Assembly: GCA_913020435.1 (NCBI GenBank)
Contig: CAJVZZ010000001.1
Span: 1-64,000, forward strand
Source: an uncultured Flavobacteriales bacterium
Lineage (GTDB): Bacteria; Bacteroidota; Bacteroidia; Flavobacteriales_G; Salibacteraceae
Direction of reading: 5' to 3'
DNA: 64,000 nt
Below, piece by piece: positions 5,072 to 36,266 of the stretch. Numbering within the stretch: the first letter of the stretch is position 1; every line of letters starts with the position of its first letter. Below the pieces are notes generated by a model that was given only the letters and a program-made list of their open reading frames with translations, was not told the DNA's origin and ran no database searches. The translations under genes were made by a program, and so were the position numbers.

Positions 5072-7504
5072 TTAGAAAGGATAACCTATCCCTAAGTTAA
5101 AATTAATTCCATATTTATATTCTCGTCCGTTCCACGATTGATAAATATCTTTTGGTTCCCAAAACCATCGTTCAGATTCAGCTAAAGATGGATCTCGAGC
5201 CTTAAAACCAAAATCACCCCGAATAACAAAGAAGTCGAGATCAATTCGTAATCCTGCACCAATACCAACTGCCATCTCTTTGTAAAAGCGGTTTATATTA
5301 AACTCTGCATTTGGTCGAAGTGGATCTTTTTCGCGCAACCAAACATTTCCAATGTCAGTAAAAAATGCGCCTTCTAAACCATCAACGATATTAAATCGAT
5401 ATTCCAAGTTGGCTTCTAAACTTAATTCGCCAATTCGGTCAATCGTATTTAGGGAATCTATCGCTGGTAAACCTCCGGGACCTAAAGTTCGAGCTACCCA
5501 AGCTCTATTTGTGTTTGCTCCTCCACCAAAGAAGGATTTTTCGAAAGGTAGTACATTCAAGTTTGATAATGGTAGACCTATTCCACTATATATCCTGTAT
5601 ACTAATTTCGAATTTTCTGTAAGTATACTATGGTATCTAAAATCACCATCAAGTTTAATATATTGAGCATATCGAATACCCAGTTTTGTATAGTATCCTT
5701 CAACAGGGTCTTGAGTACTGCCTGTAATTTTATCTAAGGCATGCAGAAGGTTACCAGTGCTTTCAATATTAGAACGAAAAAACACATAGTTTCTTTCATC
5801 AGATTTTTGATTTGTAAACGTATATTGAAATTTTGTGGCTGCTATTAAATGATCTTGATAGGAATTGATTAGTAGTGAGTTACCTGTAGCTTTTAATCTA
5901 TTTTCAAATGCTGAATCTTTTTCTAGTCTTACAAAACTGATGTCGATTGGACTCAATACAAAGCCATGTTTTCTTCCTAGGAACCATTTGTATCGATAGG
6001 CTATATTCAGCACATCCCTGTCATAAGAACCGCGATATTGATAGTTGTAAATAACTCCAATTTCAGTACTTGGATTCAAATATTTAGGTAAGCCAAACTT
6101 TATTTTTGGAATTAGTAGATCTGGAATTTTTAAAGTTACATCAGCTCCGTATTCTAAGGTGTTAAATGGTAATGCGTCATTAATTTGTTCGGTTTGGTCT
6201 TCAAATAAATCGTTATTGGTTTGCTGTGCTTCCAGTCCTCCGAACACACCAATACTTAAAGCCTCCGCTCCTTTAAATGTGTTTTTGTTTGTAAAGTTCA
6301 CGCTAGAGTTGACGCCGAGATTACCACCTCTATTAGTTCCTTCAGTTTCAAATGAAATGTTGTATTTCGGACTCATATTCAAGGTGATGTAAGCAATCAA
6401 ATTCGTTCCATTTGGATTAATTGGATCCACTGAAACATCAATATTTATGGTACTGAAAACACCTAGTGCAGTAAGCCTGCTGTATGTATATTCAATTTTA
6501 TTAAGTTGATATAGGTCACCTTTTTCAATAAATACGGCTCGTGCAATTACCTTGGGGCGAATTACATTACCCCTATAATTTACAAAGTCATATCCTTTAA
6601 ATTTTAAGGTATCATCTGCAGCAATTGAATTGCTTTTGTCTCCCATGGAAATCACAATTTTATTAATGTAAAATTTCTCATGCTTTTTACTTATCAAAGT
6701 ATCTAACCCAGCGGTTGTTCGAATTTTTACGTAACGATTTTTAATACTGATCTGATATTTTACTTTATGACTATTTAAATGGGTATCTACTTTATATTCA
6801 ATGTATTGCCGGCTAAAATTATAATAACCTCTATTTTTCATAAATCGATCCATGCGATCTCGTTCGGTCGCCAATTTGTACTCATCATAATTAGCGCCGA
6901 GTTCTAACGAAAGGCCTTCGTCTTTCTCATTATTTGAATAGTTTTTTATTACCGGTCTAAGACTGTCATCATCGAATGCAAATCCATACTTGCTTACAAC
7001 CCATGGTTTTTTTGGGGTAAGCGAATAGTAGACAGATGCCTTTCTCTTTTTTATTTTTTTTCCATTCCAGTTCGTTTTAACTTTATAATCCACAGAATCT
7101 GAACCAATAGACTCGAAGTAGCCTTTCTTTTTAAGGTAAAGGAGCATTTGAGTCGAGCTTTTGCTCACCAAATTAGTATCAATGATAACGGGAGATTCTC
7201 CAATTCGCACTAGCCAGTTTCTGAATTTATTGTCTTTTTTTGATCCAAAAGTGTAGACTCTCAAGTGAAATTTGAACAGACCTAGAAGTTTGTTATTTGG
7301 TTTTTGTTTTATAATGTCGGAAACATCATCCGTATTTAATTTTTTATAAAACTCGGAATCTCGCTTTTTTGAAGCAAGATCGTAATCAACTTCAACCTTT
7401 TCAAGAAGGTACTGACCATCAGCCAATTGTTTATAAGGGTTGCAGCTGGCTAGAAAAATTCCAGTAATTATAAGGGCTAATATGGGTTTAAGTAGGTTTT
7501 TCAA
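5072..7504 (-). CDS. tamL: TamL-like BamA-superfamily outer membrane lipoprotein
   Basis: An 810-residue outer-membrane assembly protein. The signal peptide ends at C21 (IFLASC), so it is lipidated, which in Bacteroidetes marks the TamL branch of the Omp85 family. Residues about 25-380 are POTRA-like repeats (for example YKVDTHLNSHKVKYQISIKN) and about 385-810 is the Omp85 barrel, with FFGGGANTNRAW corresponding to the conserved barrel loop and a terminal strand ending GIGYPF. Known TamL proteins work with TamB in envelope biogenesis. No tamB is visible here. Divergent from the TrmH gene, with mscS downstream. Confidence 0.85.
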   Translation of the reverse strand: MKNLLKPILALIITGIFLASCNPYKQLADGQYLLEKVEVDYDLASKKRDSEFYKKLNTDDVSDIIKQKPNNKLLGLFKFHLRVYTFGSKKDNKFRNWLVRIGESPVIIDTNLVSKSSTQMLLYLKKKGYFESIGSDSVDYKVKTNWNGKKIKKRKASVYYSLTPKKPWVVSKYGFAFDDDSLRPVIKNYSNNEKDEGLSLELGANYDEYKLATERDRMDRFMKNRGYYNFSRQYIEYKVDTHLNSHKVKYQISIKNRYVKIRTTAGLDTLISKKHEKFYINKIVISMGDKSNSIAADDTLKFKGYDFVNYRGNVIRPKVIARAVFIEKGDLYQLNKIEYTYSRLTALGVFSTINIDVSVDPINPNGTNLIAYITLNMSPKYNISFETEGTNRGGNLGVNSSVNFTNKNTFKGAEALSIGVFGGLEAQQTNNDLFEDQTEQINDALPFNTLEYGADVTLKIPDLLIPKIKFGLPKYLNPSTEIGVIYNYQYRGSYDRDVLNIAYRYKWFLGRKHGFVLSPIDISFVRLEKDSAFENRLKATGNSLLINSYQDHLIAATKFQYTFTNQKSDERNYVFFRSNIESTGNLLHALDKITGSTQDPVEGYYTKLGIRYAQYIKLDGDFRYHSILTENSKLVYRIYSGIGLPLSNLNVLPFEKSFFGGGANTNRAWVARTLGPGGLPAIDSLNTIDRIGELSLEANLEYRFNIVDGLEGAFFTDIGNVWLREKDPLRPNAEFNINRFYKEMAVGIGAGLRIDLDFFVIRGDFGFKARDPSLAESERWFWEPKDIYQSWNGREYKYGINFNLGIGYPF

Positions 7505-20108: not shown

Positions 20109-20128
20109 AATACCTATCAATAGGTATT
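20109..20128. promoter_or_regulatory. operator-like palindrome in the DUF4856-TonB receptor promoter
   Basis: A perfect 9-bp inverted repeat, AATACCTAT-CA-ATAGGTATT, whose right arm overlaps the -33 TTG of the promoter at 20127-20157. This geometry fits a repressor site. The regulator is not identified; by gene content a metal-responsive one is likely. Confidence 0.65.
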
Positions 20129-20157
20129 GTGGAGGTTGAACTCTGAGAGTACATTTG
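20127..20157 (+). promoter_or_regulatory. promoter of the DUF4856-imelysin-HTTM-TonB receptor operon
   Basis: TTG at 20127-20129, 20 bases, then TACATTTG at 20150-20157: a full match to the Bacteroidetes TTG-N17-23-TAnnTTTG promoter, 36 nt before the ATG at 20194. Confidence 0.75.
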
Positions 20158-20193
20158 CACCGTTATTTAAAATAAGTCTAAATAAAGATAAGG

Positions 20194-21369
20194 ATGAAAA
20201 AGATAGGTTATTTACTAGTTGGATTAGCAGTTTTTACTGCTTGTAAGAAAGAAGGTTGTACTGACAGTGCAGCTAATAATTATGTTGAAAAAGCTAAGAA
20301 AGATGATGGTTCTTGTACATATAATGCAGTCGTCACTCCAGTAGCAACCGCACCAAGTACTTATATGTTCGAACGAAACGGTGAGTCTTCGGTAAGTTTT
20401 TCGGGACAAGTAGAACGTTTGGATATGTTGTCTGAAATGGTTACTTACATGAAAACTGCGAATACTCCTGGTACTTCGATTGATGCTACTAAGCTGCTTA
20501 ATATGTATGCGAATGAAGCTTCTCCTTTTTCGAATGCGGATTTGAACGCTTCTACGAAACAGTTGAAAAATAAAACAGCTGGAGAAGATCCTGCGATAGT
20601 CGCTGAATTTGAAAAATTGATCAACGATATGGACATGGCTTCTGATTCTACTGAAGCCGGAAAATACGCTGCGGAAAGTGGGAAAATAGGTGTAGCTCAA
20701 TCAGGGTCTAAAGCATATTTACAAAGTGCATCTGGTCATGAATACACTCAGTTAATCGAGAAAGGTTTGATGGGAGCTGTAATGATGTATCAAATTTCTT
20801 TTGTCTATTTAGGAGATGATAAAATGAATGTTGATAATGAAGCAGTTGTAGAAAGCAAATCTTATACGAAAATGGAACATCATTGGGATGAAGCATTTGG
20901 TTATATGTTTGGAGCAACAGACTTTCCTACTGAAGGTTCTGATCGTTTTTGGGGTAAATATGCAGATGGTAGAAATGACTTGTTAGAATCGAATTCTAAG
21001 TTAATGAATGCGTTTATTGCAGGTAGATTTGCTATCACGCAAAAAGATAACGTTGCAAGAGATGCACAAATTACCATTATTAGAACTGAATTAGAAAAAG
21101 TTTGTGCTGGCACAGCTATTCATTATTTAAATTCTACAAAAAGCAAAATTACTGATGACGCTTTAAGAAATCATGCATTAAGTGAAGCTTGGGCTTTCAT
21201 AGGTGGTTTACAATTTGCTAAAGATGGTAAACTTACTGCTGCTCGGATTCTTGAACTCAAAGCATTGATTGGAACTGATTTTTATGCTGTTACAGCTGCA
21301 AATCTTACTGCTGTGAGAGATGCTTTAGCTACAACTTATGGTTTTGAATCTATTAAAGAGCAACTTTAA
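20194..21369 (+). CDS. DUF4856-family lipoprotein
   Basis: A 391-residue lipoprotein (VFTACKKEGC, lipidated Cys at about residue 17). A short GCTDSAANN...DDGSCTYN motif typical of marine Bacteroidetes secreted proteins comes first, then a long helical domain of the DUF4856 type: SFSGQVERLDMLSEMVTYMKTAN, HYWDEAFGY-like HHWDEAFGYMFGATDFP, and AHALSEAW-like NHALSEAWAFIGGLQF. Members are found beside imelysin genes, as here (2-nt gap), and resemble imelysins in fold, so a role in periplasmic or surface metal capture is inferred. It is the first gene of a four-gene operon. Confidence 0.85.
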   Translation: MKKIGYLLVGLAVFTACKKEGCTDSAANNYVEKAKKDDGSCTYNAVVTPVATAPSTYMFERNGESSVSFSGQVERLDMLSEMVTYMKTANTPGTSIDATKLLNMYANEASPFSNADLNASTKQLKNKTAGEDPAIVAEFEKLINDMDMASDSTEAGKYAAESGKIGVAQSGSKAYLQSASGHEYTQLIEKGLMGAVMMYQISFVYLGDDKMNVDNEAVVESKSYTKMEHHWDEAFGYMFGATDFPTEGSDRFWGKYADGRNDLLESNSKLMNAFIAGRFAITQKDNVARDAQITIIRTELEKVCAGTAIHYLNSTKSKITDDALRNHALSEAWAFIGGLQFAKDGKLTAARILELKALIGTDFYAVTAANLTAVRDALATTYGFESIKEQL

Positions 21370-21371
21370 GT

Positions 21372-22499
21372 ATGCGATTGAGTTTAGGATTTTTGATAAT
21401 AGTTCTGGGTTTATTGTCTTGCAAAAAAGAGGATCCCAACTTACCTGAGCTGCCAAATACGAGTAGTGCCTTTTATTTAGAAGACTTGCTTAAAAGTTGG
21501 TCGGGTTCTATCATTGTTCCAAATTATGAAAAGTACAATACAGATGCAGCTGACTTGAAGTCAGCTGCATCTGCTTTTCAATCCGATGTTTCTGTATCTA
21601 ATCTAGAAATTTTGAGAGCTAAATGGAAGGTTGCTTATCTTTCTTGGCAAACAGTATCAATGTACGAATTTGGACCTGCTGCGAATATTACATTGCGGGG
21701 ACAAACCAATATTTATCCTTTAGATACTGCAGAATTGAACGGTTTAGTGAGAGCAGGTTCAACTAACATCACGGGTGCTAATCGATTGGATGTGAAAGGT
21801 TTTCCTGCAATTGATTATTTAATTAATTCGGGTTCAATTGAATCTGTGTTATCTACTTTCACAGATGCTTCTTCTGGGAGTAATCGTTTGGGTTATTTAT
21901 TGGAGGTTGTATCTCAAATTGCTGATAATGCCTCTGGAGTTAGCACGAAATGGTCAAGTGCTGGAAGCAATTATGTTAGTCAATTTAATTCGGCAATAGG
22001 AACAGATGTCGGTAGTAGTTTAGGATTAACTATAAATGCTTTGAATGAGCATATTGAACGTTTTCTTAGAGACGGTAAATTGGGAATACCGAATGGAAAT
22101 AGAAATTTTTCGGGAACAGCTTTGCCAAATCATGTTGAAGCATTTTATAATGGTGAAAGTTCTAATGAATTAGCACTTCAAAATGTGATTGCAATTCAAT
22201 CACTTTACTTAGGACAACCTGTTGATGGAACAGATGGAATTGGACTCGATGATTATTTAGTGAGTTTAAACGCAACCTATAACAGCGGCTCATTGAATGA
22301 TGCTATAAAAAATCAATTTTTGATGTGTATAGAAACTATCGAAGCACTTCCAAAACCATTGAAAGATAATCTGGTTAGTAATAAAGCTAAAGTTGACGAC
22401 GCTGTAAAGGCTCTTCAAAAGCTTGTGGTACTTCTGAAAGTCGATGTCCCATCTGCGACAGGAATATTAATTACGTATCAAGATAATGACGGAGACTAG
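21372..22499 (+). CDS. imelysin-family lipoprotein
   Basis: A 375-residue lipoprotein (LGLLSCKKED, Cys at about 17). The imelysin/M75 fold is indicated by RAKWKVAYLSWQTVSMYEFGPA, then GFPAIDYLINS (the family's G-x-D/E-x-L segment), and NALNEHIERFLRDGKLGIPNG. The canonical GxHxxE iron motif is not obvious, as in imelysin-like proteins that lack it. Such proteins are induced on iron starvation and are thought to bind iron or haem-like ligands. Its 3' end overlaps the HTTM gene by 14 nt. Confidence 0.88.
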   Translation: MRLSLGFLIIVLGLLSCKKEDPNLPELPNTSSAFYLEDLLKSWSGSIIVPNYEKYNTDAADLKSAASAFQSDVSVSNLEILRAKWKVAYLSWQTVSMYEFGPAANITLRGQTNIYPLDTAELNGLVRAGSTNITGANRLDVKGFPAIDYLINSGSIESVLSTFTDASSGSNRLGYLLEVVSQIADNASGVSTKWSSAGSNYVSQFNSAIGTDVGSSLGLTINALNEHIERFLRDGKLGIPNGNRNFSGTALPNHVEAFYNGESSNELALQNVIAIQSLYLGQPVDGTDGIGLDDYLVSLNATYNSGSLNDAIKNQFLMCIETIEALPKPLKDNLVSNKAKVDDAVKALQKLVVLLKVDVPSATGILITYQDNDGD

Positions 22500-23850
22500 T
22501 AAATTACTTTTTTCTAGAATTAAAAATAATTTAATCACCAAAGAAGTAGATATTGCTCCTTTGGTGATTTTTCGTTTAGTATTTTCTCTATTGATGCTAT
22601 CGAGTTTAGTTCGTTTTTGGGCTAAAGGTTGGATCTATGATGTATACATTCTACCTACATTTCATTTTAAATATTTTGGATTTGAATGGATAGAAGCACT
22701 TGGTGATCCGGGCATCTATGTTTTATTTTTACTTGTAATGCTGTCCTCAGTATTTATGTTCTTTGGTTTTTTTTACCGAATAGCTGCTGCAGTATTTTTT
22801 CTGGGTTTCACATACATTGAGCTCATTGATAAAACTACTTATTTGAATCACTATTATTTCGTTAGCTTGATTGCTTTTTTAATGGTTTTTTTGCCAGCTA
22901 ATCAGTACTTTTCTATAGATTGTAAATTGAATCCTAAACTGCAGAGTAGAACTATTCAGGCTTGGTCTGTTAATCTTTTGAAATTGCAATTGGGAATCGT
23001 TTATTTCTTCGCTGGAATTGCAAAACTCAATTATGAATGGCTCGTAAATGCAATGCCACTAAAAATCTGGTTACCAGCGCATGCCTCAAAACCAGTTATA
23101 GGATTCTTGTTCAAATATACTGGTGTGTCTTATTTGTTTAGTTGGTTTGGTGCCCTGTACGATTTGGCAATTCCGTTTTTATTGCTGTCCAAGAAATTTA
23201 GACCCATGGCTTACCTATTGGTTATAATATTTCATGTTTTAACTTATTGGTTGTTTCCAATCGGAATGTTTCCTTTCATCATGATTAGCTGCACCTTGAT
23301 TTTTTTCTCTGAAGAATTCCATAAAAATTTGCTTCGTAGATTGGAAGTTATGGTGCAATGGAAGAATAAGGACAGTTCAGTATTCTCGACCCCAAGAATT
23401 GGTTCTTTTGGAATACTAAGTATCGTATTACTGATATGTTTTCAAGTAGTGTTTCCTTTTCGCCATTTGGTATATGAAGGTCCATTGTTTTGGCATGAGC
23501 AAGGCTACCGTTTTGGTTGGAGAGTAATGCTAATTGAAAAGGCTGGAACTGCTTTTTTTTATGCTTCAGAACTCGAAACCAATAAACATTTTGAAATACG
23601 AAATTCGGATTATCTTACCGCCAACCAAGAGAAAATGATGGCAACACAACCCGATATGATTTTAGAGTTCGCTCACCATATTGCAGACGATTTAAAGACT
23701 AAAGGCTGGGAGAATCCAGAGATAAGGTCTGAAGTGTATGTTACTTTAAATGGCAGTGGAACTAGACCGTTTATTGATTCAAAAATTAATCTTGTTTCTA
23801 TCCAAGACTCTTGGAAAGAAAAGCAATGGATTTTACCATTTGAAAATTGA
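22486..23850 (+). CDS. HTTM-domain membrane protein (vitamin K-dependent carboxylase-like)
   Basis: A 454-residue polytopic protein. The N-terminal HTTM module has IDIAPLVIFRLVFSLLMLSSLVRFW-like sequence (DIAPLVIFRLVFSLLML), DKTTYLNHYYFVSLIAFLMVFLP, LLKLQLGIVYFFAGIAKLN and FHVLTYWLFPIGMFPFIM, which match the bacterial homologues of gamma-glutamyl carboxylase. The C-terminal ~130 residues are soluble with HLVYEGPLFWHEQGYRFGWRVML. Carboxylase activity in bacterial HTTM proteins is unproven. It overlaps imelysin upstream and the TonB receptor downstream (TTGA), so it is translationally coupled. Confidence 0.88.
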   Translation: MTETSKLLFSRIKNNLITKEVDIAPLVIFRLVFSLLMLSSLVRFWAKGWIYDVYILPTFHFKYFGFEWIEALGDPGIYVLFLLVMLSSVFMFFGFFYRIAAAVFFLGFTYIELIDKTTYLNHYYFVSLIAFLMVFLPANQYFSIDCKLNPKLQSRTIQAWSVNLLKLQLGIVYFFAGIAKLNYEWLVNAMPLKIWLPAHASKPVIGFLFKYTGVSYLFSWFGALYDLAIPFLLLSKKFRPMAYLLVIIFHVLTYWLFPIGMFPFIMISCTLIFFSEEFHKNLLRRLEVMVQWKNKDSSVFSTPRIGSFGILSIVLLICFQVVFPFRHLVYEGPLFWHEQGYRFGWRVMLIEKAGTAFFYASELETNKHFEIRNSDYLTANQEKMMATQPDMILEFAHHIADDLKTKGWENPEIRSEVYVTLNGSGTRPFIDSKINLVSIQDSWKEKQWILPFEN

Positions 23851-26267
23851 GTATCAGAAATTTCATAACGATTGTGTTACTTGTCATTGGACAATTACTC
23901 TCCGCCCAAAAAGCAAGTCTTGAAGGGAGAGTTGTGTGGGAAAGTAATGGAAAAGCTGCTACGGAAAGTGAAATAATTCTGAAATACACACCTTATAAAA
24001 CCAAAACAGATAAACAAGGAAATTATAAATTAAGTCATTTAAAATCAGGGAATTATACGGTCGTAGCTTTTACGTTAGGTCTTGAAACAACCGAACAAGA
24101 TGTTGTTTTAAAACCAGGAAAAAATACCTTGGATTTTGATTTGGACAGTATTTCTATTGAATTGAATGAATTTGTGGTTCTGGAGGAGGCAAGTTCAAGT
24201 TTTGGTCTAATGCACATGTCAGCAGTAGAGGGAATGGATATCTACTCAGCAAAAAAGAGTGAGGTAATTATAATGGATCAAATAGATGTGAACTTGGCAA
24301 CCAATAACTCTAGACAAATTTACAGTCGAATTGCAGGCCTAACCATTTGGGAAAGTAGTGCTGGTGGTTTGCAATTAGATATTGGTGGAAGAGGTCTAAG
24401 TCCAAATAGAACCAGTAATTTCAATACCAGACAAAATGGATATGATATTGCAGCTGATGCTCTAGGTTATCCAGAAAGTTATTATACTCCACCTTCAGAG
24501 GCTATCGAACGCATTGAAGTAACGCGTGGAGCATCTAGTTTACAATATGGAACTCAATTTGGCGGAGTATTAAATTTTGATTTAAGAGGACCTAATCCTG
24601 ATAAAAAAATGGATGTCTTGTTGAGACAAAGTATTGGCTCTTACGGCCTTTTTAATACGTTTAATTCTATTGGTGGAACGAACAAGGATATTGGCTATTA
24701 CGGTTTTATTAATTATAAACAAGGAAACGGTTGGCGTCCAAATAGTGAGTTTAATTCTATTGTTGGCCATGTGCAGTTACACCACAAAATCAATGATAAG
24801 CTCAGTTATAAAATTGAATTTACAAAAATGAATTATACTGCCCAGCAACCAGGAGGATTAACAGATACCTTGTTTAATAGAGATGCTGGACAGAGTATCC
24901 GAGAAAGAAATTGGTTTGCTGTAGATTGGAATGTTGGTGCAGTAGTTTTGAGTTATCGCTTGAATTCAAAGTGGAGATTTGAAATGCGAAATTTTGGGTT
25001 AATTGGCTCAAGAGATGCGCTAGGAATTCTAGGCTATATAAACCGACCCGATCCTTTGGGAAAGAGAGATTTAATAAAAGACGAATACCTAAATGTAGGG
25101 AATGAAACGCGGATGATTCATACCTACAACTTTTTAGGAAATCCAAATAATTTGTTGTTGGGCGTTAGATATTATCGTGGTTTTACAAAAAGAAAACAAG
25201 GAGATGGCTCTATTGACAGTGATGCTAATTTTGAATACGCTGATCCCGATAAGCCAGAATACAGCAATTATAGATTTCCAAGTCAAAATATAGCTGCTTT
25301 CACAGAGAATGTATTTCAATTCTCTGAACGTTGGAGTATTACCCCAGGATTTAGAATGGAACATATTATTACAGAATCAGTAGGAAGTTACAATGTTCAA
25401 TATTTTAATTTGGCGGGTGAGTCTTTGTTTGACACAACTATTGCAGATCATCAAAGTAGTTCCCGTGGTTTTGCGATTGGAGGAATTGGAACAGCATATA
25501 AATTCAAGAATAATGAGGTTTATGCTAATATAAGTCAGAATTATCGAGCAATCAATTTTAACGATATGCGCATAAATAATCCTAATCTGCGAGTAGATCC
25601 AGATTTGCAAGATGAAACCGGTTTTTCGGCTGATCTTGGTTTACGAGGTAATTTGAGTAAATACTTTATTTACGATGTAAGCCTTTATTATTTGCAATAC
25701 TCAGGCAGGATTGGAACAGTTGCTAGAGTAAATGAAAATACGTTTAGAATTTATCGCTTTAGAACAAATGTATCGGACTCAAGAAATCTTGGAATAGAGT
25801 CTTTTGGTGAAGTTGATTTGTTGGGAATTATAACCAAAGGAAAATCTAAAATAAATTTGAATTTGTTTAGTAATTTCACTTTGCAAGACGCTCGATATGT
25901 GAATTCTGCAGAAGCAGCCTTTGAAAATAAAAAGGTAGAAAATGCACCAAGCCTGATTTTAAAAACGGGTATGAATATAAAATGGAAAAAATTTAAAATT
26001 GGTTATCAATACTCATATAATTCGGAGCAGTTTTCAGATGCTACCAATGCAGTTTACACTGATAATGCTTTGGCAGGAGTTATACCAGCCTTTTGGGTTA
26101 TGGATTTAAGCACCAGTTACGAGTACAAAAAATGGAAATTCGAAACGGGTATCAATAACCTAACTGACAATCGATATTTTACAAGACGTGCTGCAGGTTA
26201 TCCAGGACCTGGAATTATACCTGCTGATCCAATTAATTTTTATGGAGCAGTTCAGCTGCATTTTTAA
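23847..26267 (+). CDS. TonB-dependent receptor, FecA-like
   Basis: An 806-residue outer-membrane receptor. A signal peptide (1-20, LLSAQ) is followed by a carboxypeptidase-like beta sandwich (ASLEGRVVWESNGKAATESEI; about 22-105), a plug domain (about 125-245) with RGLSPNRTSNF and the plug end IERIEVTRGASSLQYGTQFGG, and a 22-strand barrel ending AVQLHF. The TTG start overlaps the HTTM stop. The plug resembles FecA-type siderophore receptors. With the imelysin and DUF4856 lipoproteins it probably captures an iron complex at the cell surface. No TonB, ABC transporter or surface sensor follows. Confidence 0.92.
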   Translation: MSIRNFITIVLLVIGQLLSAQKASLEGRVVWESNGKAATESEIILKYTPYKTKTDKQGNYKLSHLKSGNYTVVAFTLGLETTEQDVVLKPGKNTLDFDLDSISIELNEFVVLEEASSSFGLMHMSAVEGMDIYSAKKSEVIIMDQIDVNLATNNSRQIYSRIAGLTIWESSAGGLQLDIGGRGLSPNRTSNFNTRQNGYDIAADALGYPESYYTPPSEAIERIEVTRGASSLQYGTQFGGVLNFDLRGPNPDKKMDVLLRQSIGSYGLFNTFNSIGGTNKDIGYYGFINYKQGNGWRPNSEFNSIVGHVQLHHKINDKLSYKIEFTKMNYTAQQPGGLTDTLFNRDAGQSIRERNWFAVDWNVGAVVLSYRLNSKWRFEMRNFGLIGSRDALGILGYINRPDPLGKRDLIKDEYLNVGNETRMIHTYNFLGNPNNLLLGVRYYRGFTKRKQGDGSIDSDANFEYADPDKPEYSNYRFPSQNIAAFTENVFQFSERWSITPGFRMEHIITESVGSYNVQYFNLAGESLFDTTIADHQSSSRGFAIGGIGTAYKFKNNEVYANISQNYRAINFNDMRINNPNLRVDPDLQDETGFSADLGLRGNLSKYFIYDVSLYYLQYSGRIGTVARVNENTFRIYRFRTNVSDSRNLGIESFGEVDLLGIITKGKSKINLNLFSNFTLQDARYVNSAEAAFENKKVENAPSLILKTGMNIKWKKFKIGYQYSYNSEQFSDATNAVYTDNALAGVIPAFWVMDLSTSYEYKKWKFETGINNLTDNRYFTRRAAGYPGPGIIPADPINFYGAVQLHF

Positions 26268-35015: not shown

Positions 35016-36266
35016 TTACGGGTTGTTTGTTTCCTTTGGGATTTGAGAAATTTCATCCTTTTCATTTTTGCCTTGCTTAAAATTAAGTGAAATTATTGTG
35101 GCTAGCGCGCAAATAATTAGGGTTCCTAGACCTAAAAACCCATGTGAATCGATGATTTTAAACCATTCGTTCCCCCATAAATCGCCTCCATAACTGGCAA
35201 TAAAAAACCAGGGCAATCCAAACAAACAGAGAAGGAGTTCGCTCCTTTTTAGAACTATTTGATAACCAACGACGCCTATCATAGGCAGTACAAATAGGAA
35301 GTGTTCTGTGTCAGTGATTAAAAAAACAGGTACTAATGCTATAGTGAGAAAATAGAATACAAAGAATTTTCGTTCTTCAGTTTTGTTTAATATTTTGCTT
35401 TTAAATAGGCCTGTAAATCCGATAGATTGCCAAAAGAGCAAGAACAAAACGACAATAGTGATCACCAATAAAATCATTGATGATATGGTGGAGATTTCAA
35501 AATTGACATAGGTTTTAGCCAAAGAAGAAATGGTTTGAGCACTCGTCAAATAGGCTGAGTGTTCAGTCATCGATATTATCCATTCTTTATGAAGGGTAAT
35601 TCCAATTTCGAATCCTTTAATCAAAAAGATCGACAGCATTAATCCCAGTATAAACAAAACACTCGAAAATAACGTTCTCCATTTACCAAAAAGTATCAAA
35701 GGCAAAAATAAAAGACCAAAATATGGTTTGGTCATAATGACTATAGCCAAGAGTAAACCACTAAGAATCGATTTTTTTTTAATGGAAAAGTTAAAGGCAT
35801 AAAAGCAGAGTAGCAATAGAAGTAAGTTGGTATTACCTAGGTGTAACTCTCGAATTAAGTGCACTGCAATTGAGAGCATTAAGAAGATTGAAAACCAGAA
35901 TTTAAGTTGCTGGTTTTTTTCTTTTTTAAACCAAAATTGTGTGATTGAATTTAAAAGAAGTACCACCGCAAAACTTAGCAGAAAAAAGTAAATACTCATG
36001 GCTAATGAGTAGGGTAAATAAGCTAACGGAACAAACAAAATAAGAGTCGAGGGAGAATATTTATAGAATCCCGTATCCAATCCGAAATTTTTACCATAAA
36101 CCTGCTGGTCTGCTAATAATGCATTACAAGCATCGTAGAACACTCGGAAATCATTTAACCACAAACGTTCATTTATAAACTCAAATGAGAACATAGTGAT
36201 AAAAAATGCCAGAATTAGCACTAATAACCAACGAGAATAAGGCTCAGAAAAATATTGACGAATCAA
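35016..36266 (-). CDS. GT87-like (DUF2029) membrane glycosyltransferase
   Basis: A 416-residue polytopic protein with about 10 hydrophobic helices. The first helix is followed by the periplasmic DFRVFYDACNALLADQQVYG motif and FYKYSPSTLILFVPLAYLPY, both typical of GT-C enzymes of family 87, which use polyprenyl-phosphate sugars. Typical acidic catalytic residue: D near 36 (NDFRVFYD). It is monocistronic. The acceptor is unknown; cell-surface glycan or lipid modification is inferred. Confidence 0.8.
   Translation of the reverse strand: MIRQYFSEPYSRWLLVLILAFFITMFSFEFINERLWLNDFRVFYDACNALLADQQVYGKNFGLDTGFYKYSPSTLILFVPLAYLPYSLAMSIYFFLLSFAVVLLLNSITQFWFKKEKNQQLKFWFSIFLMLSIAVHLIRELHLGNTNLLLLLLCFYAFNFSIKKKSILSGLLLAIVIMTKPYFGLLFLPLILFGKWRTLFSSVLFILGLMLSIFLIKGFEIGITLHKEWIISMTEHSAYLTSAQTISSLAKTYVNFEISTISSMILLVITIVVLFLLFWQSIGFTGLFKSKILNKTEERKFFVFYFLTIALVPVFLITDTEHFLFVLPMIGVVGYQIVLKRSELLLCLFGLPWFFIASYGGDLWGNEWFKIIDSHGFLGLGTLIICALATIISLNFKQGKNEKDEISQIPKETNNP

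Follow-up and report, generated by a model that had tools for sequence, protein, structure and literature searches.

The control of iron uptake in Bacteroidota has been described as scarcely known (PMC10434189). The present analysis concerned a palindrome, called E1, and a Fur-box-like repeat, called E2, in the promoter of a four-gene operon from an uncultured Flavobacteriales bacterium (Salibacteraceae; contig CAJVZZ010000001.1, positions 1 to 64,000, the whole stretch being the window). An operon of the same type was reported from Riemerella anatipestifer, where a gene set comprising a TonB-dependent receptor, a vitamin K-dependent gamma-carboxylase, an imelysin and a hypothetical protein was iron- and Fur-responsive (PMC5609570). 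The Fur box consensus of that species was ATTTAGAATTATTCTAAAT, and Fur bound promoters carrying it in an electrophoretic mobility shift assay (EMSA; PMC5609570). The same four gene types kept an iron response in the fur mutant, with ratios of 2.70, 2.77, 2.92, and 3.07 (PMC5609570), so a second iron input appeared to be called for. In Porphyromonas gingivalis, CdhR (PG1237) is induced by iron starvation and tied to the hmu genes, and it was stated to be their transcriptional activator (PMC10101095). PG1236-37 and BT_0519-0520 were upregulated under iron limitation by a mechanism called unclear, and the accessible part of the same paper stated no operator, motif or binding site for CdhR (PMC10434189). 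For the haem two-component regulator HaeR, the region upstream of hmuY was not enriched in chromatin immunoprecipitation sequencing (ChIP-seq) though it was shifted in EMSA, and no motif was given in the accessible text (PMC3764172). Finally, a 7-2-7 site with its centre at -44.5 allows activation by NarL in E. coli (PMC7419079). Our literature search found no paper that named the operator E1.

The operon in the window was best read as an iron-starvation uptake operon under two stacked controls, probably a NarL-type activator on E1 and Fur on E2. We put the probability of this reading at roughly 0.78. Judged from sequence, E1 is a real switch kept before iron genes across Bacteroidota, and it is most likely read by a regulator that acts beside Fur. 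The palindrome lay at 20109..20128 on the plus strand and read AATACCTAT-CA-ATAGGTATT, the perfect 9-bp inverted repeat given in a preliminary description of this DNA. The promoter of that description, TTG-N20-TACATTTG, was found as well, with a Bacteroidota-type -33 TTG at 20127..20129 and the -7 box TACATTTG 20 nt after it at 20150..20157, both on the plus strand. The right arm had been said to cover the TTG; it shared only the two T, and the G was outside. From the names of the boxes, transcription would start near 20161, which would place the centre of E1 at about -42.5. The symmetry of E1 was dropped as evidence, because 0.7 perfect 9-2-9 palindromes were expected per 64-kb window by mononucleotide shuffling and one was seen. 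E1 was counted as real because it recurs at the same promoter position before iron genes. The conserved feature is TACC-N8-GGTATTG placed 20 nt from the -7 box, not the perfect 9-bp symmetry. For the whole promoter pattern (TACC-N8-GGTATTG, N20, TAnnTTTG), 0.21 sites were expected per window at up to three mismatches, and the window site had 0 mismatches.

The layout of E1 was informative about its reader. The NarL heptamer consensus is TACYYMT. The putative operator E1, with its core TACC-N8-GGTA, reads TACCTAT-CA-ATAGGTA and thus fits the NarL-type 7-2-7 definition. E. coli NarL likewise uses two inverted heptamers 2 bp apart in a site that abuts the promoter. Fur was ruled out as the reader of E1, since the AATnATT core of the Fur box was absent from 20109-20128 and the Fur box was E2. 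DtxR-type boxes have the arms TTAGG...CCTAA, and DtxR was ruled out because the arms of E1, ACCTAT...ATAGGT, are reversed relative to these. The earlier suggestion of an unusual regulator, neither Fur nor DtxR, agreed with these comparisons and with the NarL-type candidate.

Searches of the genome of the window (G000, 2.95 Mb) were consistent with an iron regulon. The palindrome with up to three mismatches was found at five places, against three for the reversed pattern. Four of them headed iron operons, and one (contig C18) was intragenic and counted as chance. The whole promoter pattern with 0-1 mismatches gave five sites, all before iron operons or a regulator gene. They preceded the window operon, feoAB on C5, a C37 operon with a di-haem oxidoreductase (DHOR) gene between two imelysin genes, a C36 operon of ferredoxin and flavodoxin with a solute-binding protein gene behind it, and the gene of a NarL-type regulator on C12. 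At three mismatches the pattern gave 19 places, fewer than the 23 of the control, which is background. Therefore, only the 0-1-mismatch sites and C12:79925 were used, and a three-mismatch site at 35786-35832 of the window was disregarded. The C12:79925 site had two mismatches, and its -7 box was immediately followed by an E2 box. The secreted protein on C12 with E2 at 79896 matched only the Por secretion tail, and its possible likeness to HmuY was judged by eye. Two side observations concerned these operons. The DHOR gene between the two imelysin genes was split into two open reading frames (ORFs; G000:C37, L006:3690-5111), either by a frameshift or by an assembly error. The first gene of the flavodoxin operon coded for a 110-aa protein without a Pfam match above the cut-off (G000:C36, L009:4033-4365), and a further Bacteroidota record (L258) has it too, again with E1 and E2.

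The site was also kept in relatives. Within the order, 36 of 42 genomes had the promoter pattern when one mismatch was allowed, at about 92 places in sum against 11 for the reversed pattern. In a gene-first test, 27 DUF4856 loci were taken from 26 of the 42 genomes, and 26 promoters were left after exclusion of the fragment L406. All 17 specified bases were matched in 17/26 promoters and four more had two mismatches, so that E1 was kept at up to two mismatches in 21/26, and the check on orthologous promoters proposed earlier came out in favour of the operator. Four others had a recognisable site with altered spacing or a changed end, and G001 had none; the reversed control never came below five mismatches. 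E2 was found with up to four mismatches in 26/26. The spacer from the TTG to the -7 box was constant at 20 nt while its sequence varied; this was partly by construction in the pattern searches, since the pattern demanded it, and the sites of the window, C37, C5, C36 and several relatives were found without the demand and still had 20 nt. In the class, 134 of 395 genomes had the exact pattern, and the reversed one occurred in 2. Scanning named genomes for exact matches gave at least 119 stretches, and every title of the 80 listed was that of Bacteroidota or a group within them. Among the matches listed in named Bacteroidota there were 121 sites, and the domain scan covered the 94 whose first gene coded for 80 aa or more and started within 130 nt, with the other 27 outside it. 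The first genes of these 94 included 26 with a TonB plug, 16 with FeoB_N, 14 with FeoA, 7 with hemerythrin and 6 with GerE domains; DUF4876 (3), DUF4856 (2) and imelysin (1) were rarer, and some first genes in named genomes were not iron genes. In the family, 7 of 21 FeoB_C genes had an E1 site about 1.4-1.7 kb upstream in a by-eye comparison, and the feo sites lacked E2. This recurrence before iron genes supported the earlier view that an operator overlaps the -33 box of these iron-uptake genes. As a separate observation, a conserved methyltransferase was headed by E1 in several families, with an E2 box inside the 20-nt spacer (L361, L372, L375, L108). An iron-responsive S-adenosylmethionine (SAM)-methyltransferase locus has been reported in P. 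gingivalis and B. thetaiotaomicron (PMC10434189).

E2, the repeat TTATTTAAAATAAGTCTAAATAA, was located at 20163..20185 on the plus strand, downstream of the -7 box and before the start of DUF4856, and had been missed in the preliminary description. It had two mismatches to the 21-bp pattern TATTTAGAATNATTCTAAATA, for which 0.05 matches were expected per window at up to three mismatches. Given a start near 20161, E2 would lie just after the start point. We call E2 a predicted Fur box because it equals the Riemerella anatipestifer box, which is matched by E2 and not by the palindrome E1. The earlier idea that the palindrome controls the operon was therefore kept for the operator and narrowed in two respects, since a Fur box follows it and it would not be the only control, and the 9-bp symmetry is not what is conserved. 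With up to three mismatches, TATTTAGAATNATTCTAAATA occurred at 13 places in the whole genome and its reversal at 2, and two Fur-family genes were present. Boxes of the E2 type preceded the window operon, both three-cysteine regulator genes described below, the flavodoxin operon, the solute-binding protein gene and the second imelysin operon. Further boxes belonged to a SufA/IscA-like gene, ferritin, NqrA and others, several of these gene names being read from translations. Boxes at G000:C27:4508, C7:38799, and C17:59393 were near ferritin, NqrA and a succinate dehydrogenase cytochrome b-like gene. These three were positioned unlike the uptake-promoter boxes, and Fur possibly acts differently on iron-using genes. 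At the SufA/IscA-like gene (G000:C5 near 117098; L143 about 5080-5160, minus strand), the E2 box overlapped the -7 region. An E1-like repeat, TACCTACTATTAGGTATA, was farther upstream there than usual, and E1 may act from this greater distance.

The best candidate for the reader of E1, from the comparisons described here, is a NarL-type orphan regulator in which three cysteines are invariant. A NarL-type reader was proposed because of the 7-2-7 layout, the E1 sites in the promoters of such genes, and the linkage between sites and genes. The genome of the window has two such GerE paralogues, RR-A (G000:C12:82129-82770, minus strand), whose promoter has both E1 and E2, and RR-B (G000:C6:64451-65047, minus strand), with E2 only. 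Receiver and GerE domains were found in both, the receiver of RR-A scoring 29.8 bits against a cut-off of 30.2, which is borderline, and that of RR-B 31.3. The cysteines C108, C128, and C148 (RR-A numbering) were invariant in 31/31 members and absent from all of the 17 other NarL paralogues, with L338 counted in the three-cysteine set. They were also present in 28/28 readable class-wide best hits, one of 29 having given no ORF. E2 preceded the three-cysteine regulator genes in 27/28 cases, and in 26/28 class-wide, the two sets overlapping, and none of the 17 paralogues. The tree placed the three-cysteine regulators in two clades. The receiver pocket was degenerate in many of them, with the acceptor Asp in 23/31, the Lys in 13/31 and the second acid in 0/31. 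RR-B retained the acceptor Asp, Ser, Lys and one acid of the pair. In RR-A the acidic pair was gone and Arg replaced Lys, and in this degenerate pocket, as in its association with iron genes and not nitrate genes, the system differs from E. coli NarL. The neighbours of RR-A were DUF6607, FMN_bind and other genes, and an ORF resembling a PAS/histidine kinase was about 0.7 kb upstream. In addition, an E1-like repeat, TACCATAGTGATGGTATTG, was seen just beyond the end of the RR-A gene (G000:C12:82104-82150) and was kept in G033 (C3:389711).

E1 was found before regulator genes in G000, G033, G009, G005 and G030, and also in G131, G193, G235, G146 and G086. The linkage was evaluated in the class with 150 listed E1 sites and 150 listed regulators. 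Among these matches, 17 of 105 same-genome pairs were at most 1 kb apart, where 0.11 were expected. All 17 were on the same strand; E1 was 29-57 nt before the regulator in 6, and in the other 11 E1 followed the regulator. Only three pairs were 2-52 kb apart. G026 was the sole regulator-free genome of the family with a completeness of 90% or more and no more than 5% contamination, and it had no E1 site at one mismatch, which is a single case.

Related features were seen in the Bacteroidales. There, E1 headed operons of hemerythrin and a GerE regulator, or a fusion of both. In the whole genome of Porphyromonas gulae, four E1 sites with at most one mismatch were found. They headed hmuYR, a hemerythrin-cdhR operon and one putative secreted protein gene, and the fourth was without a clear gene. 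The HmuY of P. gulae was recognised from its protein. The systems of CdhR (PG1237) with its hemerythrin partner PG1236 in P. gingivalis, and of BT_0519-0520 in Bacteroides thetaiotaomicron, have a GerE-type regulator as the window genome does, and E1 occurs in P. gulae, a close relative of P. gingivalis, and on hemerythrin-GerE operons of other Bacteroidales. The two families shared the same operator and the same helix, HT[VI]xTHR[KR]N. A predicted model of a CdhR-type protein from Alistipes had a receiver plus GerE topology (pLDDT 65.7), although the Pfam scan of the CdhR-type protein did not recognise the receiver. Its 50 best solved matches were all NarL/FixJ-type regulators or their DNA-binding domains, including NarL, VraR, and LiaR, and its TM-scores against full-length NarL-like chains were low (0.3-0.4). 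The acceptor position was Asn in 6/6 CdhR-type proteins, whereas the Asp is kept in RR-A. Unlike CdhR, the regulators of the window genome carry three cysteines; no hemerythrin partner was seen beside RR-A, and a domain scan of RR-A and RR-B found no hemerythrin. These comparisons suggested that E1 in Bacteroidales is most likely read by CdhR, with hemerythrin as its partner.

Several observations weighed against a three-cysteine reader of E1 under joint control with Fur. Of the 94 genomes for which an E1 site was listed, only 59 were among the 140 with a listed three-cysteine regulator. G032 and G034 keep E1 without an RR-A-like best hit, so RR-B or both regulators would have to act there. 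G037 has an E1-like site, and at E 1e-45 no regulator was found in it. The few sites of Flavobacterium antarcticum and Flavobacterium IB48 had no clear iron gene behind them. The tree did not make CdhR and the three-cysteine regulators sisters. The Riemerella operon is absent from the Fur-box table of PMC5609570.

The operon itself contained four genes on the plus strand. A DUF4856 lipoprotein gene (20194..21369) was followed after a 2-nt gap by an imelysin (Peptidase_M75) gene (21372..22499). This was overlapped by an HTTM/vitamin K-dependent gamma-carboxylase-like gene with a VKGC lumenal domain (22486..23850), which in turn was overlapped by a TonB-dependent receptor gene (23847..26267, TTG start as listed). 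The ORF coordinates and domain matches thus confirmed the coupling described before. The last gene had been called a FecA-like receptor; it is a TonB receptor, and the FecA label is loose because all matches to FecA and siderophore-receptor models were below the model cut-offs. The predicted fold of the DUF4856 protein had a mean pLDDT of 50.6 and was not used.

We propose the following mechanism. The orphan NarL-type (GerE) regulator would bind E1 as a dimer at about -42.5 and aid RNA polymerase at the -33/-7 promoter. Iron-loaded Fur on E2 would repress the operon as well as the gene of the regulator. Once iron drops, Fur would leave both, the level of the regulator would rise, and RR-A would activate itself. 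The regulator would then turn on the window operon, feoAB, the second imelysin operon and the flavodoxin operon, which would form a feed-forward loop. That the three cysteines sense iron is a guess from their invariance. Activation from E1 is favoured over repression because of the position of E1 and the analogy with CdhR.

A repressor on E1 would act in the opposite way, with a dimer on the -33 box blocking polymerase until iron starvation releases it. E1 overlaps the -33 TTG by two bases, and this position suits blocking and class-II activation equally. However, most non-feo sites already have a Fur box for repression, the -44.5 site of NarL in E. coli serves activation (PMC7419079), and CdhR is a reported activator of the hmu genes, with E1 heading hmuYR in P. 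gulae. We consider a repressor unlikely. It is improbable that E1 is read by another regulator belonging to this regulon, for example the TetR protein of a transporter operon induced by iron, with the proximity of NarL-type genes caused only by shared iron control. Three Bacteroidales genomes had TetR-like genes behind E1, those of B. caecigallinarum (no mismatch), P. uenonis and Prevotella koreensis (one mismatch each); these genes were assigned by reading the translations and count against a NarL-type reader. However, none was behind the 91 E1 sites inspected, the 7-2-7 layout belongs to NarL-type proteins, and GerE genes were behind E1 in Bacteroidales, the family of the window and other families. 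E1 could also simply extend the -33 element in one class of promoters, used for example by an alternative sigma factor, with no regulator bound. The constant spacer of 20 nt and the presence of the TTG within the motif would suit this. However, sigma contact does not need the TACC...GGTA symmetry, the best sites of the own genome were confined to iron genes and the regulator, and class-wide enrichment there was strong, which makes such an element quite improbable. A chance palindrome in an AT-rich intergenic region, with Fur as sole control, would agree with the number of perfect repeats expected per window and with the Fur-responsive Riemerella operon, but it is hardly credible given the conservation in the own genome, the order and the class and the linkage to the regulator.

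An activator on E1 and Fur on E2 would have consequences beyond this operon. Tentatively, and at rather less than even odds, most Bacteroidota may have a second iron regulator next to Fur, a GerE activator with one shared operator, whose sensor was exchanged in evolution. The sensor would be three cysteines, perhaps an iron or iron-sulfur site, in one branch and a hemerythrin partner or fusion in the CdhR branch. If true, this would explain the leftover iron response of the Riemerella fur mutant. Bacteroidota include gut and mouth species. With a defined operator, the regulon may be read from sequence, and CdhR would be tied to feoAB, flavodoxin and TonB receptor operons. In other Bacteroidota, the operator names a candidate three-cysteine regulator family, and it would make the question of a Fur-independent iron sensor testable.

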